Of a DNA stretch of 64,000 nucleotides, positions 58,640 to 64,000 are shown piece by piece. The notes below the pieces were generated by a model. The model did not search any database. It was not told the origin of the DNA and saw only the letters and a program-made list of their open reading frames with translations. Position numbers and translations under genes: made by a program. Source of the DNA: Streptomyces sp. CGMCC 4.7035 (GTDB lineage Bacteria > Actinomycetota > Actinomycetes > Streptomycetales > Streptomycetaceae). The number at the start of each line of letters is the position of its first letter. Within the stretch, counting starts at the first letter, position 1. The DNA lies in assembly GCF_031583065.1 (NCBI RefSeq), contig NZ_CP134053.1:62001-126000 (forward strand), read 5' to 3'.

Positions 58640-60604
58640 TCAGCTGGTGAAGATGAAGTACTTCCACGCCCCGTGCGTCGTCGAGTTCACGACGTCACCC
58701 GACGTGCTGTTGTAGTACGAGGAGCGGACGCGCATGCGGTAGCCCGTCTCGTGGGTGCCGCCGAGGCGGACCTTCGAGACACCCGTGGAGCTCAGCTTGA
58801 AGTACTCGGAGCCCGCGTCGTACCAGGTGCCCTGGTAGTAGACCTCCAGCTGGAGCTGCTGGCTGCGGTTCGGGTACGCCGTCATCGTCGTGGTGAACAG
58901 CGGGTCCTTGGACTTGTGGAAGTAGTAGTAGGTGTGGCCCCACGTGTACTTCGTCTTGTACTGGCCGCTGATCGACGTCGAGACCTTCACCTTGGCGCCC
59001 ACCGTGCTGGTGGCCGTCTTCGGCTTGTAGCGGGAGTCGCCCGCGAACTTCGCGACGACCTTGGTGTCACGGGTCAGGCGCAGGGTGACGGACAGGTTGC
59101 CGCTGCTGTTGACCGTGCCGGACTTCACGAGCTTGTTCGGCTTGTCCGTGCCGAACGGGTCGGCCCAGATCTCGACCTTGCGGTTCTTGTACGTCGTACC
59201 GAGGTGCGCCGTGAAGGTCACGTCCTTGCCGTAGGCGTACACCTTGCGGTTGTTGTTGAGCGTCAGGGTCGGCGTGGCGCGCGATACCGCCACCACGTCC
59301 GCGGCGCTTGCCGCGGTGTGGGTGGCGTCGCCCGCGTAGGTCACCTTGTACGTGACCTTGCCACCGGCCGGCGGGGTGTCCTTGAAGGAGAACTTCCCTC
59401 CGCTGCCGAGGTACTTGGTGCCCAGCGACTTGCCGTTCGGCGACTCCAGGTCCGTGCGGGTGACCGTCAGCGGGGTCCCGGCGGGCAGTGGCAGTGTCGC
59501 GGTGAGCGCGCCCGTGACCGTCAGGGACTTGGCGCGCGTGGCGGTGGCCGGGGCGTTGACCTTGAGGGCCGGCGCGTACTTGCGGGGCTCGTCGACGACG
59601 TGGAACAGGGTGGAGTCGTCGGACCCGCCCAGCACGAACAGCTTGCTGCCGTCGGCCGACCAGTTCGTGGAGTGACCGCCCCACGGCATCCAGCCGTCCG
59701 ACAGGTTACGGATGCTGGCGGGCCGGCTCGGGTCGGTGCTGAAGACGTATGTGTCGCCGACGTTGTCGGTGTCGAGGACGGTGGCCGCGACCGTGCCGTC
59801 CGGCGCGACGCTGACCGTCTCCGGTTCGGACACGACGGGGTAGGTGCGCACCTCCGCCAGGTCGGAGAGCCGGTACTCGGTGAGCGCCCGGTTTCCGGGC
59901 CCGGCCACGACGACGTTCTGGCCGTCCGGGGTGAGGGCCGCGTCGTGGTAGAAGCCGCCCTTGTCGGCGGACACGCGGATCACCGGGGTGCCGGAGGAGA
60001 TGTCGTAGACGACGATCGGACCGGAGCTGATGTGCGCGTCGAGAGCGAGCAGCGTGCCCGGGTTGTCGGGGTCGGCGTAGAGCTCGGGTGGGCTGGAGAA
60101 GTCGTGCCCGGCCGCCAGGTCGAGCGTCACCGTGGGCGTCTCGGCGGTCAGGTCGACCATGCCGAGCCCGGATTCCCACTGGTCGCCGTAACCGAACCAC
60201 AGCCTGCCGTCGGCGTAGGCGAGACGGGACGGGATGGTCCTGGCGCCGGTCGGGTATTCGGCGGTCTGCTTGAGCGTCGCCGTGTCGAAGGCGACGATCT
60301 TGTCCGCGCCCTCGACCGCGGCGTACAGCGTGCCGGAGTCCGGGCTCAGTTCGAGGTCCCGGACCTGGGGCAGGCCGGTAAGGGTGGCGGTGACCTTGCC
60401 GGTGTAGTCGGTGACGACGATCTCGTTCTGGTACCGGGCGCTGAAGAACAGCCGCTGGTGGACGCCGTCCACGACCGTGTCGTCCGCGTCCTTGACCGCG
60501 ATGGGCCTGACGGTGTCGGCGAACGCCGCCGGTGCGGCGGTCAGCACCGCCGAGCTGAAGAGGGCCGCCAGTGCTGCGGCGGCCGGAAGGGTGCGCATAC
60601 GCAC
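58640..60604 (-). CDS. Secreted beta-propeller / Ig-like repeat protein (paralogue 2)
   Basis: 654 residues from GTG 60604, preceded by GGGGGG. Signal peptide MRTLPAAAALAALFSSAVLT then an A-x-A site. The layout matches the protein at 21959-23908: propeller (about 40-330), two Ig-like domains (ALKVNAPATATRAKSLTVTG; ATPTLTLNNNRKVYAYGKDV), and a C-terminal beta domain ending WKYFIFTS. The Ig and C-terminal parts are plainly more alike than the propellers. The genes are in opposite orientation about 35 kb apart. Convergent with the TPR protein gene across 22 bp. Confidence 0.87.
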   Translation of the reverse strand: MRMRTLPAAAALAALFSSAVLTAAPAAFADTVRPIAVKDADDTVVDGVHQRLFFSARYQNEIVVTDYTGKVTATLTGLPQVRDLELSPDSGTLYAAVEGADKIVAFDTATLKQTAEYPTGARTIPSRLAYADGRLWFGYGDQWESGLGMVDLTAETPTVTLDLAAGHDFSSPPELYADPDNPGTLLALDAHISSGPIVVYDISSGTPVIRVSADKGGFYHDAALTPDGQNVVVAGPGNRALTEYRLSDLAEVRTYPVVSEPETVSVAPDGTVAATVLDTDNVGDTYVFSTDPSRPASIRNLSDGWMPWGGHSTNWSADGSKLFVLGGSDDSTLFHVVDEPRKYAPALKVNAPATATRAKSLTVTGALTATLPLPAGTPLTVTRTDLESPNGKSLGTKYLGSGGKFSFKDTPPAGGKVTYKVTYAGDATHTAASAADVVAVSRATPTLTLNNNRKVYAYGKDVTFTAHLGTTYKNRKVEIWADPFGTDKPNKLVKSGTVNSSGNLSVTLRLTRDTKVVAKFAGDSRYKPKTATSTVGAKVKVSTSISGQYKTKYTWGHTYYYFHKSKDPLFTTTMTAYPNRSQQLQLEVYYQGTWYDAGSEYFKLSSTGVSKVRLGGTHETGYRMRVRSSYYNSTSGDVVNSTTHGAWKYFIFTS

Positions 60605-60708
60605 GCTGATTCGAACCCCCCGGATCGAAAAAGTGGTCAAAGTCCGCCCTGCGCACGGCAGTTGTGTGGTTCCTGTGTGCCGGGTGTGGCGGATGAGCGA
60701 AGACTAAG

Positions 60709-61950
60709 TCATGCCACCGACAGATGGGCCAGCGCCCCCGACACCAGCGTCCGGATGCCGGGGACGAGTGTGGACAGGTCGGGCGCGAAGTGCGGGCTGT
60801 GGTTGCTCGGGACCGCCGCGAACTTCTGCATCAGGTCCGCGCCCGGTGCCGCCTGCCAGACATCGGCCGGGGTGCTCGTCACGAACCAGTACGCGTACGG
60901 GACCCCGTCCGGCGCCAGGTCCGCGAAGTCCTCGCTGCCCATCGCCGGCCCCGGGTCGAAGACCGTGCCCTCCCCGAACACCTCGCCGTGCACGGCGGCG
61001 ACGCGGCGGTCCGTGTCGGCGTCGTTGACCGTCACCGGGAAGTCCACGCCGACGGTCACCTCGGGCTCGCGCGGGCAGCCCGCCGCCAGGCACTCGCCCG
61101 CCGCGACGCGCCGCACCGCGGCGACCATCCGGTCGCGGACCTCGGCCGACTGCGTGCGCAGGTTCAGGGCGATGTGCGCCCGGGACGGGATGATGTTGTG
61201 CCGGGTGCCCGCCTCGATCCGGCCCACGGTCAGCACCGCGGAGTCGCGCGCCGCGATCTCCCGGCTGACGACGGTCTGAAGACGGGTGACGAGGTACGCG
61301 GCCGTCACCACGGGGTCCACCGTCGACTCCGGGCGCGAGCCGTGGCCGCCCCGGCCGTGCACGACGATGTCCACGTCCGTGGAGGCCGCGAGGATCGGGC
61401 CCGGTACGTGCGCGTACAGGCCGGCCGGGCCCGGCGCCGCGTGCTGGGCGAGCAGTACGTCGGGGCGCGGGAAGCGTTCGTACAGCCCGTCCGCGACCAT
61501 CGCCCGCGCGCCCTGACCGGTCTCCTCGGCGGGCTGGCCCACCACGAGCAGCGTGCCCGACCAGGCGTCGCGCCCGGCGGCGAGCGCCCCGGCCGCGCCC
61601 GCCAGCCAGGTGACGTGCAGATCGTGCCCGCAGGCGTGCATCACGTCCGCCACCTCGGAGGCGTACGGCAGCCCCGTCTCCTCGGTGACGGGCAGCGCGT
61701 CCATGTCGGCGCGCAGCAGGACGGTCGGCCCGTCGCCGTTGCGCAGCACGCCGACGACCCCGGTGCCGCCGACGCCCTCGGCCGTCTCGTACCCGGCCGT
61801 GCGCAGCCGCTCGGTGAGCTTCCCGGCGGTCCGGTGCTCGCGCAGGGACAGTTCGGGGTGGCGGTGCAGATCCCGGTAGCAGTCCTCCAGGTCCGGGACC
61901 GGGAGGTCGGCGGTGAGGTCCAACGCGGTGCGCGCGGCGGCGGAGGTCAC
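60709..61950 (-). CDS. M20 family amidohydrolase (metallopeptidase)
   Basis: 413-residue zinc amidohydrolase of the hippurate/IAA-amino-acid hydrolase group. Metal ligands: LLRADMDALPVTE, MHACGHDLHV, QPAEETGQGARAM, and a late His in AMGSEDFADL context; the dimerisation domain contains HGRGGHGSRPESTVDPV. It cleaves N-acyl amino acids or similar amides; the exact substrate is unknown. GTG 61950 lacks a clear SD. Its start lies 38 bp below the small peptide gene, on the same strand, so it may be cotranscribed with it and could process the peptide or its product. Confidence 0.92.
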   Translation of the reverse strand: MTSAAARTALDLTADLPVPDLEDCYRDLHRHPELSLREHRTAGKLTERLRTAGYETAEGVGGTGVVGVLRNGDGPTVLLRADMDALPVTEETGLPYASEVADVMHACGHDLHVTWLAGAAGALAAGRDAWSGTLLVVGQPAEETGQGARAMVADGLYERFPRPDVLLAQHAAPGPAGLYAHVPGPILAASTDVDIVVHGRGGHGSRPESTVDPVVTAAYLVTRLQTVVSREIAARDSAVLTVGRIEAGTRHNIIPSRAHIALNLRTQSAEVRDRMVAAVRRVAAGECLAAGCPREPEVTVGVDFPVTVNDADTDRRVAAVHGEVFGEGTVFDPGPAMGSEDFADLAPDGVPYAYWFVTSTPADVWQAAPGADLMQKFAAVPSNHSPHFAPDLSTLVPGIRTLVSGALAHLSVA

Positions 61951-61988
61951 GGGGGAAGCGTATGCCGAGTCGAGGCCGGGGACCGTCG

Positions 61989-62141
61989 CTATCTGGCGTT
62001 CTGGAGCTGCTCGACCTGGCGGGCAGGGCCCGGCTCCGCGGACCCGGCCGGCCCCGTGTGGGCGGCCATGGTCAGGGCGGCGACGGCGATCAGGGCCGCG
62101 GCGACGCTTCGGGAGTAGCGGGCGGCTGTTCGTCGGAGCAC
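61989..62141 (-). CDS. Small exported peptide precursor (candidate signalling peptide)
   Basis: 50 codons from GTG 62141 to TAG 61989-61991. A basic N-terminus (LRRTAARYSRS), a hydrophobic core (VAAALIAVAALTMAAHTG) and a likely cleavage site (PAGSAEPG) form a signal peptide; the mature tail (about 15 residues) ends ARQVEQLQNAR. Codon third positions are mostly G/C, and a purine-rich stretch (GAGGCGAGG) lies upstream. It is divergent from an XRE-TPR regulator, the arrangement of secreted peptide pheromones and their RRNPP-type receptors. Expression and signalling are inference. Confidence 0.6.
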   Translation of the reverse strand: MLRRTAARYSRSVAAALIAVAALTMAAHTGPAGSAEPGPARQVEQLQNAR

Positions 62142-62174
62142 GGCGGCCTCGCCTCGCTTCGCATCAGCGGTTGG

Positions 62175-62188
62175 TTAAGCACGCTTGA
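62175..62188. promoter_or_regulatory. Repeated site next to the peptide gene
   Basis: TTAAGCACGCTTGA contains the dyad AAGC-ac-GCTT and the half-site GCACGCTTGA, which recurs as GCATGCTTGA at 62348-62357. It lies ~38 bp upstream of the peptide start. A second GTTAAGC/GCTTAAC dyad spans 62173-62213 in the same AT-rich region. Confidence 0.5.
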
Positions 62189-62341
62189 TAAACAGGTTTA
62201 ATGCGCGGCTTAACGTAGGCCTTTCGGCGGGAGCGTGCAAGGGGGTCGGCAAGGCCCGCAGGACATACTTGCCCGTTTTTAACTGCGCTTTCACATATGG
62301 AGAGTTGGATAAAAGTCAGAGTCGGCCAGATGTAAGCCGAC

Positions 62342-62357
62342 TTAATGGCATGCTTGA
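62342..62357. promoter_or_regulatory. Repeated site abutting the XRE-TPR start
   Basis: TTAATGGCATGCTTGA shares TTAA and GCRYGCTTGA with 62175-62188, in the same orientation, and ends 3 bp before the regulator ATG. Binding here would block its own transcription or translation, consistent with autoregulation. No SD precedes the ATG, so the mRNA may be leaderless. Confidence 0.45.
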
Positions 62358-62360
62358 CTC

Positions 62361-63704
62361 ATGGAGGAGCGCGACGACCCGGAGACCATCGGCCGGAGGG
62401 TGCAGCAGCTGCGGACCGAGCGCGGGCTGACGCAGAAGCAGCTCGCGGAGCCGGTGTACACGCCCGCGTACATCTCCACCGTGGAGGCGGGCCGCGTCCG
62501 CGCCTCCGAACCGGCACTGCGGCACATCGCCGAGCGGCTCGGCATCGCGTACGAGGAGCTGGTGACCGGACGTCCGGCCCATCTCGCCACCGGTCTGCGG
62601 CTCCGGCTCACCGACGCCCAGCGCACCCTCGCCACCGGCGCGGCCGAGGTCGCGGCCGAGCAGTACGGGGCGCTGCTGACCGAGGCCGAGGCGCACGGGC
62701 TCGTCGCCGAACAGGCCGCCGCGCTGCTCGGACTCGGCGAGTGCGCGATGGAGCTGGGCGACCTGGCGACGGGGCGACAGCACTTCGAGCGGGCGGAGAA
62801 GTGCCTGGACGACGCACCGCTGCCCAGCCGGGTCCCGGCACTGCGCGGCCGTGCCGTCTCGCACTACCTCGCCGGTGAACTCCGGTACGCCTGTTACCTG
62901 CTGGAGTCCACCCTCGACGAGCTCAACCGGTCCGGGCTGCACGACCCGGACGCCCTGCTGCTGCTCTACGCGAGCGCCATCGGCCCGTACATGGACATGG
63001 GCGCGCACGCGCGGGCGGCACAGGCGGCCGAGATCGCGCTGGCGCTCGCCCCCCAGGTGGGCGACCCGGCGCTGGTCGCGCGCATGCACCGGTCGGTGGC
63101 CCGCACGCTCCTCGCGGAGGGCCGCGTCGCCGAGGCGGATGCCTCCCTCGCCAAGGCCGCCGAGCTGTACCGGCAGCTGCAGATCCGCACCGAGCTGGCC
63201 AACTGCCACTGGATGCGCGGCTACCTGTACGCGCAGAACGGCGAACTCGACCGTGCCGAGAGCGAGTTGCGCGAAGCCCTCGCCATGCTCTCCGAGAAAC
63301 GGGCCGCCCTCTACAGCAGCCAGGTCGCGGTGGAGCTGGCGGATGTGCTGCACCGGCGCGGGAAGTCCGAGGAGGCCGCCGGGCTGCTGCACGACGTCCT
63401 CGGCGACATCGGCCCCGAGCGCGGCGCCGTGCACTCGGCCGGCGCGCACCGCCTCCTGGGCATCATCGCGGAGGACGCGCGCGACACGGAGGCCGCGGAG
63501 GAGCACTACGTCCGTGCGCTGAGCCTGCTGGAGCGGGCGGGCGCCGCGGGCGACCTGGCGGACCTGTGCCGTCTGCTCGGCGATCTGCTGCGCCGTACGG
63601 GCCGGGTGGAGGCGGCCCTGGACGCGTACCGCACGGGCCTCGGCCACCGCACCGCCCCCGGCACGACGACCCTGGGCCCGGCACCGGCGCAGCCGCCGAT
63701 CTGA
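62361..63704 (+). CDS. XRE-family HTH regulator with TPR array (RRNPP-like)
   Basis: 447 residues. The N-terminal XRE helix-turn-helix (about 8-70; GLTQKQLAEPVYTPAYISTV is the HTH core) is followed by a long TPR superhelix (about 85-430) with repeated helical pairs (ALLGLGECAMELGDLATGRQ, HRSVARTLLAEGRVAEADAS, MRGYLYAQNGELDRAESELR, HRLLGIIAEDARDTEAAEEH). XRE+TPR is the architecture of peptide-responsive RRNPP regulators (PlcR/Rgg/PrgX types). ATG 62361 has no SD. Divergent from the small exported peptide gene, which may encode its ligand. Other XRE-TPR proteins in Streptomyces have unrelated ligands. Confidence 0.9.
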   Translation: MEERDDPETIGRRVQQLRTERGLTQKQLAEPVYTPAYISTVEAGRVRASEPALRHIAERLGIAYEELVTGRPAHLATGLRLRLTDAQRTLATGAAEVAAEQYGALLTEAEAHGLVAEQAAALLGLGECAMELGDLATGRQHFERAEKCLDDAPLPSRVPALRGRAVSHYLAGELRYACYLLESTLDELNRSGLHDPDALLLLYASAIGPYMDMGAHARAAQAAEIALALAPQVGDPALVARMHRSVARTLLAEGRVAEADASLAKAAELYRQLQIRTELANCHWMRGYLYAQNGELDRAESELREALAMLSEKRAALYSSQVAVELADVLHRRGKSEEAAGLLHDVLGDIGPERGAVHSAGAHRLLGIIAEDARDTEAAEEHYVRALSLLERAGAAGDLADLCRLLGDLLRRTGRVEAALDAYRTGLGHRTAPGTTTLGPAPAQPPI

Positions 63705-63716
63705 CAGCCGGCTCCT

Positions 63717-63737
63717 GGGCGGACGACAGGACCTAGG
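63717..63737. repeat. Relic of the MITE-like element's right end
   Basis: GGGCGGACGAC followed by AGGACCTAGG matches the right end of the element at 30460-30642 after loss of a 14-bp internal stretch between its two GACGAC repeats. It lies between the XRE-TPR gene and the convergent sulfatase gene. Confidence 0.6.
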
Positions 63738-63740
63738 CAC

Positions 63741-64000
63741 CTAGGGAGTGACGATCGGGAAGTCCCGGTCCGGCTGTGTCACATACGAGAACAGTCGCTT
63801 CAGCAGCCCCCGGTCGCCGTCGGTCTCGATGCCCGCGAGGCCCTTGCCCGACAGCAGGCCGAACAGTTCGGGACGGGTCAGGGTGAGCGTCAGGCCCGCG
63901 TGCGGCTTCGGGGTGCGGTGCAGCGGCAGGCTGCGGTGCGTCAGTGCGCCGTGCTCCAGATTGATCCGGTGCCGGCGCCCCTCGTCGATGACGACCAGGT
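63741..64000 (-). CDS. Alkyl sulfatase-like metallohydrolase, C-terminal part only
   Basis: The minus frame ending at TAG 63743-63741 encodes ~86 residues and is open to the window edge. The sequence (LEHGALTHRSLPLHR, GLTLTLTRPELFGLLSGKGL, then FSYVTQPDRDFPIVTP) matches the C-terminal SCP2-like domain of SdsA/BDS1-type alkyl sulfatases, whose N-terminal metallo-beta-lactamase domain would lie beyond position 64000. Such enzymes cleave sulfate from alkyl esters. Assignment rests on the small C-terminal domain only. Confidence 0.7.
   Translation of the reverse strand, partial: LVVIDEGRRHRINLEHGALTHRSLPLHRTPKPHAGLTLTLTRPELFGLLSGKGLAGIETDGDRGLLKRLFSYVTQPDRDFPIVTP

Follow-up and report, generated by a model that had tools for sequence, protein, structure and literature searches.

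Our comparative analysis revealed that a small ORF and a divergently transcribed HTH-TPR regulator of Streptomyces sp. CGMCC 4.7035 are, as judged from sequence conservation, a genuine two-gene unit, for which no name was found. The unit lies in a stretch of 64,000 nucleotides of contig NZ_CP134053.1 (positions 62,001 to 126,000), here called the window. We tentatively favor, with a confidence that stops somewhat short of even, the explanation that it is self-contained, combining a repressor with a hydrophobic peptide, and that a fragment of the signal peptide feeds back on the repressor. In addition to the pairing, the comparison supports selection on the core of the peptide and not on its tail, a predicted operator, a promoter layout common to the small ORF and the protease genes beside sibling regulators, and the absence of the protease from genomes that carry the small ORF. 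A preliminary description of this DNA had proposed a peptide-pheromone circuit here; the divergent pair that it pictured, a signal-peptide-like ORF and an HTH-TPR regulator, proved to be conserved in 80 of 80 loci and shares a predicted operator, and the part of the peptide that it proposed as the pheromone is probably the wrong one.

In the window, the small ORF (61989..62141, minus strand) encodes 50 amino acids from a GTG start, which is preceded by a Shine-Dalgarno sequence matching GAGG (62147..62150, minus strand). The product shows a basic N-terminus, a hydrophobic, signal-peptide-like core, an invariant proline at position 31 and a short tail; the signal peptide at its start was called by eye. 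The conserved segment from R8 to P31, RYSRSVAAALIAVAALTMAAHTGP (62049..62120, minus strand), has the common form RYxRGxxAAVVAVAALVTAANAGP in the family, and the variable tail of residues 32-50 (61992..62048, minus strand) holds VEQLQNAR. The regulator (62361..63704, plus strand) has 447 amino acids, with an N-terminal XRE/HTH_31 domain and TPR repeats. On the other side of the small ORF adjoins an M20 amidohydrolase gene (60709..61950, minus strand), which we judged to lie outside the unit. The small ORF and the regulator are separated by 219 bp with a GC content of 54.8%, compared with 70.8% for the window, in agreement with the AT-rich shared intergenic region described earlier. This gap contains a promoter-like sequence for the small ORF, TTGCAC-N17-TACGTTAA (62210..62240, minus strand; a consensus match only), and, downstream of its -10 element, a predicted operator O1, TTAAGCACGCTTGA (62175..62188, unstranded), of the consensus TTAAGYNNRCTTAA, with further TTAA half-sites nearby (62195-62204 and 62207-62214). 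A second predicted operator, O2, GTAAGCCGACTTAA (62332..62345, unstranded), lies 15 bp before the regulator start and is overlapped by TTAATGGCATGCTTGA (62342-62357). When up to two mismatches were allowed, TTAAGYNNRCTTAA matched the window only at 62175-62188 and 62332-62345, both in the gap, and one of 100 shuffles, which preserve base composition only, gave two matches. The half-site GCRYGCTTGA, noted earlier beside both genes, indeed occurs exactly twice in the window (62179-62188 and 62348-62357), both times in the gap; however, at least two matches somewhere in the window were also obtained in 12 of 100 shuffles, and the half-site alone is therefore weak evidence.

When named genomes were scanned with the regulator, 438 relatives were obtained, and the best 80 were kept (79 of them titled Streptomyces). 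A profile search detected the small ORF divergent from the regulator in all 80 of these orthologous loci; because the profile was built from the 65 clearest of them plus the window copy, the matches in those loci are partly circular. The check suggested in the preliminary description, whether a small ORF is conserved opposite the regulator's orthologs, thus had a positive outcome in 80 of 80 loci. The distance to the regulator was at most 220 bp in 74 loci and 0.6-1.9 kb in the other six (L027, L029, L032, L044, L060 and L064). Among these separated loci, the three inspected showed an intervening block with a 105-aa ORF, and the small ORF retained its palindrome; the regulator-side site was present in all six, with 3 mismatches. 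By eye, the block comprises an XRE gene together with the 105-aa ORF in L064 (1952-3451) and L044 (2204-3474), and in L064 also a DUF397-like gene.

To sample the genus, 246 Streptomyces genomes were drawn evenly, and the small-ORF profile scored at least 30 bits in 103 of them, with one match each. The linkage test covered 101 of the 157 genomes with a regulator, namely all 98 rows at or above 79% identity plus G355, G163 and G462; because these three, below 79%, were added for carrying the small ORF, the unbiased linkage is 97/98. In these 97 the small ORF was linked to and divergent from the regulator, and the sole exception, G518, has a protease in its place. None of the 18 matches below 30 bits was linked to a regulator of the linkage test. 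Among 150 genomes of the family from 17 genera, the small ORF was found in 18, all from one genus, and one of the genomes (G626) had a second, weaker match of 32.8 bits. Database searches yielded 494 homologs of the small ORF, and the 120 listed were unnamed, hypothetical or uncharacterized, with one "Secreted protein"; no Pfam or NCBIfam model matched the small ORF at E<=1.

The pN/pS of the small-ORF core was 0.54 in frame, compared with 1.15 and 1.87 in the other two frames, and that of the tail was 0.95 (81 sequences in each case; non-independent pairs were pooled and the proportions are uncorrected). Its presence in 80/80 loci and an in-frame pN/pS below that of the other frames indicate that the small ORF is beyond chance. 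One alanine, one leucine and one proline column were identical in all 81 small ORFs, and the asparagine of AAN was present in 68, the window copy having a histidine. The number of residues after the proline was bimodal, with 1-2 in 14 of the 81 sequences and 16-76 in the rest. In 66 of the 67 long forms, the pattern A-x-[AGS] matched within 7 residues after the proline, while 13 of the 14 short forms had 33-37 amino acids and ended directly after the hydrophobic part. On the regulator tree the short forms require two changes, of which strongly supported branches force only one. We also compared the core with the signal peptides of M64 peptidases encoded beside sibling regulators (see below) at matched regulator divergence, and conservation was 0.57/0.39, 0.60/0.49, 0.64/0.58 and 0.79/0.60, with 59, 45, 12 and 8 M64 pairs in the respective bins and hence few in the two closest. 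For this comparison L176 was excluded, and 33 of 35 stretches entered (L163 and L166 were not represented in the regulator alignment); the starts of small ORFs and M64 genes were picked by script. All copies but L018 (80 of 81) had a GAGG no more than 20 bases upstream of the chosen start, and the starts were partly picked for this motif. Because the pN/pS of the core is low, the tail is near-neutral or absent (14/81) and the core outconserves M64 signal peptides, we interpret the sequence data to mean that selection has acted on the signal-peptide segment and not on the tail. The tail with VEQLQNAR, formerly proposed as the mature pheromone, drifts nearly neutrally and is lost in 14 of 81 homologs, and on these grounds we rejected it in this role.

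In 66 of the 81 intergenic regions of small-ORF loci (group A), footprinting revealed, on the strand of the ORF, the sequence TTGNNN-N17/18-TANNTTAA, compared with 1 of 4050 shuffles. This promoter-like sequence runs into the palindrome TTAAGYNNRCTTAA. In all but one of the 81 loci, the palindrome, with up to 3 mismatches, lay no more than 110 bp from the start of the small ORF, and the best intergenic site had at most one mismatch in 64 of 81 (shuffles 0/1620). Because the operator sits just downstream of the -10 element, its position suggests that the regulator represses the small-ORF promoter. Of the 55 intergenic regions longer than 125 bp, 31 had a second site with up to 3 mismatches no more than 60 bp from the regulator start, and in 29 of these the distance was 15-16 bp. 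In 12 genomes searched throughout, all 8 perfect copies of the operator and 14 of the 19 copies with at most one mismatch were at this locus; the reversed control pattern occurred 2-7 times per genome at the same threshold, as frequently as the operator or more, and G446 had no operator match. A wide regulon therefore received no support at <=1 mismatch in these genomes, and they revealed no output gene beyond the locus, which is odd for a pheromone circuit.

The regulator matched HTH_31 (2.6e-10), TPR_2 (1.8e-15) and several TPR families in Pfam, and 1404 homologs were obtained at E<=1e-10 among 8000 candidates scored. No RRNPP-specific model of Pfam or NCBIfam was listed for it at E<=1. Among the PDB matches (the best 60 of 62 in the profile search), PlcR was the only RRNPP protein, and its match was confined to the DNA-binding domain, within residues 5-62 (E 1.9e-4 with the single sequence and 1.6e-11 with the profile); in the single-sequence search a designed DNA binder outscored it. 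One distant relative, L100, with a regulator of 40% identity, is identical in sequence to the Angustibacter luteus protein P0241; its regulator gene lies near a gene for a secreted protein that by eye is LPMO-like, and the fetched stretch yielded neither an M64 gene nor a small ORF. The M64, S33 and M20 queries gave no match in the distant relatives L100-L113.

Natural losses of the regulator were seen in three genomes. In G412 (L186, 2606-3783), the regulator is in two pieces with residues 123-315 unmatched between them; other sequence separates the pieces, and the small ORF and a near-perfect operator persist. In G316 only the last 22 codons of the regulator remain, and in G018 no piece of it was found at the locus. 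The small ORF and the promoter layout have been retained in G316 and G412 despite the deleted or broken regulator, and the operator is nearly intact in G412 and, by eye, seemingly split in G316; neither promoter nor operator was recognizable beside the diverged small ORF of G018. These cases, which at three are few, are compatible with an operator that needs its regulator. A gene for a membrane permease-like protein (YraQ/ArsP-like by eye) adjoins the 3' end of the regulator in L185 (1863-2870) and L186 (3857-4861).

More distant siblings of the regulator (group B; 40 rows selected, not at random, from the regulator listing, plus L097 and L098) are accompanied by a different gene. Three of the 39 fetched regulators at 62-77% identity had the small ORF (L155, L182 and L183), and the other 36, together with L097, L098 and the regulator of G518 (L173, 79%), all had an M64 peptidase gene nearby (39/39). 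The M64 gene was divergent and upstream in 37 of these 39, and an S33 proline iminopeptidase was present in 12. The M64 protein looks secreted beside the sibling regulators L144-L181 (except L155) and L097-L098. From this arrangement, the M64/S33 siblings are likely a peptidase-control system in other Streptomyces. All 5 M64-type genomes contained the M64 family PF09471, whereas it was missing from all 16 genomes with the small ORF, of which 14 have the regulator and the other two are G018 and G316. The promoter layout described above was seen ahead of 18 of the 24 M64 genes that are directly divergent (shuffles 1/1200) and ahead of no S33 gene among 12. Group B has a weaker version of the exact palindrome, which reaches <=1 mismatch in 9 of 44 rows and is perfect only in L155 and L173, and the intergenic regions contain related TTAA half-sites. 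The arrangement of M64 start, ribosome site and a perfect operator in L173 follows the order of the small-ORF loci. In a regulator tree of 86 rows (including 40 of the 81 group-A copies, with L183 dropped as too short), one change separates the small-ORF kind from the M64 kind. The M64-bearing L173 groups with small-ORF regulators in a 47-row group with a support of 99; the branch dividing the two kinds has a support of 29, and L173 forms a long branch.

The small ORF thus most likely replaces the M64 protease gene, and it probably descends from a truncated one. Truncation to the signal peptide is the likeliest origin because M64 is absent from small-ORF genomes, the promoter layout is common to both, the order in L173 is the same and a single change on the tree suffices. 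The small-ORF profile did not recognize the signal peptide of the L173 M64 protein, and descent from M64 therefore rests mainly on position and promoter. Pairwise z scores between the small ORF and M64 signal peptides were 4.3 for L173 and 1.9-6.7 for five others, whereas an unrelated signal peptide from the window scored 1.0; these values are suggestive but indecisive, and sequence homology between the two was not accepted. Because this direct protein similarity is weak, the replacement by an unrelated ORF placed behind the same promoter is an alternative, which we consider less likely than truncation.

The preliminary description had also suggested that the M20 amidohydrolase could belong to the unit. 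In the window, this gene starts 38 bp after the small ORF. An M20 relative, at any position in the fetched stretch, was found in 24 of 80 loci, four of them beyond the regulator (some loci end at contig ends), and only 17 of 80 had it in the same orientation with its start within 1.3 kb of the regulator start; in two of these 17, a strong hairpin intervenes between the small ORF and M20. The gene was accordingly rejected as a member. The 60 bases after the small-ORF stop had a mean z of -0.35, with 10 of 81 loci below -2 (including L082, L025, L007 and L005) and a value of +2.1 in the window; a general terminator behind the small ORF was not accepted, the fold being strong in few loci only. 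No Rfam model matched positions 60600-64000 at E<=0.1, and with downstream genes that vary, an attenuator or known RNA was likewise discarded. Beyond the M20 gene, positions 58640-60640 encode a large protein that matches the Ig-like repeat Big_3_5 weakly, below the cut-off; relatives of this protein occur near the regulator in L011, L045, L071, L073 and L081.

According to the favored explanation, the HTH-TPR protein would act as a repressor by binding TTAAGYNNRCTTAA immediately after the -10 element of the small ORF, and many species would have another binding site for it next to the regulator gene. The small ORF would be the leftover 5' end of an ancestral M64 gene, comprising promoter, ribosome site, start codon and signal peptide, and its useful product would be the hydrophobic signal-peptide segment ending in AAN-x-G-P. 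In the long forms, a signal peptidase cut just after the proline would free this segment, and in the short forms a stop codon at that point would end it. The TPR domain would then, most likely, bind the segment or a fragment of it, altering the repressor's hold on the operator. We infer that the peptide might be exported and re-imported and that the signal might pass from cell to cell. That a secreted protease gene was reduced to its signal peptide and made into a dedicated ligand of its own former regulator is a scenario that we regard as rather unlikely in its entirety.

A different reading, which we take as a serious possibility, is that the small ORF encodes a conserved single-span membrane microprotein acting as an effector, with a regulator that answers another ligand, for example the peptides that formerly signaled the need for M64 and proline iminopeptidase, and without any feedback by the peptide. 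The peptidase genes that adjoin group-B regulators (M64 in 39/39, S33 in 12), the survival of the small ORF after regulator loss in G316 and G412, and the resemblance of the core, by eye, to a membrane span all agree with it. However, a signal-peptidase-like site after the proline in 66 of 67 long forms would be superfluous for a stable membrane protein, and nothing else at the locus points to a target. It is improbable that the small ORF is a functionless, decaying M64 remnant that has been retained because its promoter region matters to the regulator. Drift of the tail, the common promoter layout and G018, in which regulator, operator and promoter are missing beside a diverged ORF, would fit such decay, but all 80 loci retain the open frame and its start, 79 of the 80 also GAGG, and decay would hardly leave in-frame selection, an invariant proline and a core that outconserves working M64 signal peptides.

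The favored feedback by the signal-peptide segment also differs from a canonical RRNPP pheromone, in which the mature signal would lie in the C-terminal tail. The layout does match an ORF of 10-100 aa with a signal sequence beside a TPR protein of 250-500 aa, as outlined in the accessible part of PMC10075063, but a tail with a pN/pS of 0.95 and anything from 1 to 76 residues after the proline, 1-2 of them in 14/81, makes this very improbable. We also consider it very improbable that the ORF is a leader peptide steering the downstream gene by attenuation or coupled translation: the 38-bp distance to M20 in the window speaks for such a leader, but the downstream genes differ among loci, a strong fold (z < -2) follows the stop in 10 of 81, and Rfam gave no match at E<=0.1. 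Even without signaling, the locus looks like a gene that lost all but its signal peptide and was subsequently maintained by selection.

Cytoplasmic peptide-pheromone circuits have been described for Firmicutes, and in Streptomyces the uptake of an oligopeptide signal through BldK is a long-standing proposal. In the portions of the literature available to us, signaling is described via small molecules for Actinobacteria (PMC10075063) and via gamma-butyrolactones for Streptomyces (PMC13220807). No description of an RRNPP-type circuit in Streptomyces was found in a search that included the accessible parts of PMC10075063, PMC13118837 and PMC13220807, with supplements and most subscription papers outside it. 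If the unit signals, it would provide concrete ligand and receptor candidates for streptomycete peptide signaling; if the scenario of a protease signal peptide turned into a ligand is true, it would represent a signal-peptide-derived intracellular signaling circuit native to Streptomyces and present in about 40% of the Streptomyces genomes sampled. The unique placement of the operator makes tests simple.

RRNPP systems are defined, in the sections of PMC10075063 at hand, by a TPR receptor of 250-500 aa, with an HTH domain if it is a transcription factor, and an adjacent secreted propeptide of 10-100 aa, whose mature signal is usually C-terminal, NprX being among the exceptions. Here, the candidate receptor has 447 aa with HTH_31 and several TPR families, and the adjacent candidate propeptide has 50 aa and is linked to it in 97 of 98 genomes. 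The basic N-terminus, the hydrophobic core (by eye) and the A-x-[AGS] pattern in 66 of 67 long forms are compatible with secretion. The conserved part of the long forms does not lie at the C-terminus, and in the 14 short forms the end adjoins conserved residues. With a layout that fits, a C-terminal signal that does not and no match to an RRNPP-specific model, we do not claim the unit as a member of this class. PlcR/PapR and NprR/NprX of Bacillus share the HTH and TPR architecture with it; however, the match is confined to the DNA-binding domain, and the tail here drifts freely. The group-B HTH-TPR/M64 siblings are alike in their regulator (62-77% identity), promoter layout (18/24) and related TTAA half-sites, but they face a full, secreted-looking protease, and their exact palindrome is weaker.

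In its presumed working, the unit would be most like Rgg/SHP or PrgX/cCF10. In Rgg/SHP of Streptococcus, a regulator with an HTH domain and helical repeats stands beside a very short hydrophobic pre-peptide, and the short forms here, of 33-37 aa in 13 of 14, similarly end after the hydrophobic part; however, no Rgg model of Pfam or NCBIfam matched, and the phylum is another one. This type of layout is partly covered in PMC10075063, as far as its accessible text goes. In PrgX/cCF10 of Enterococcus, a lipoprotein signal peptide supplies cCF10 as its seven C-terminal residues, and the target of cCF10 is a repressor (accessible portion of PMC7117660); the conserved part of the small ORF is likewise signal-peptide-like. 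In contrast to that system, the precursor here is a stand-alone gene beside the regulator, with a type I-like and not a lipoprotein site, and plasmid conjugation is not involved.
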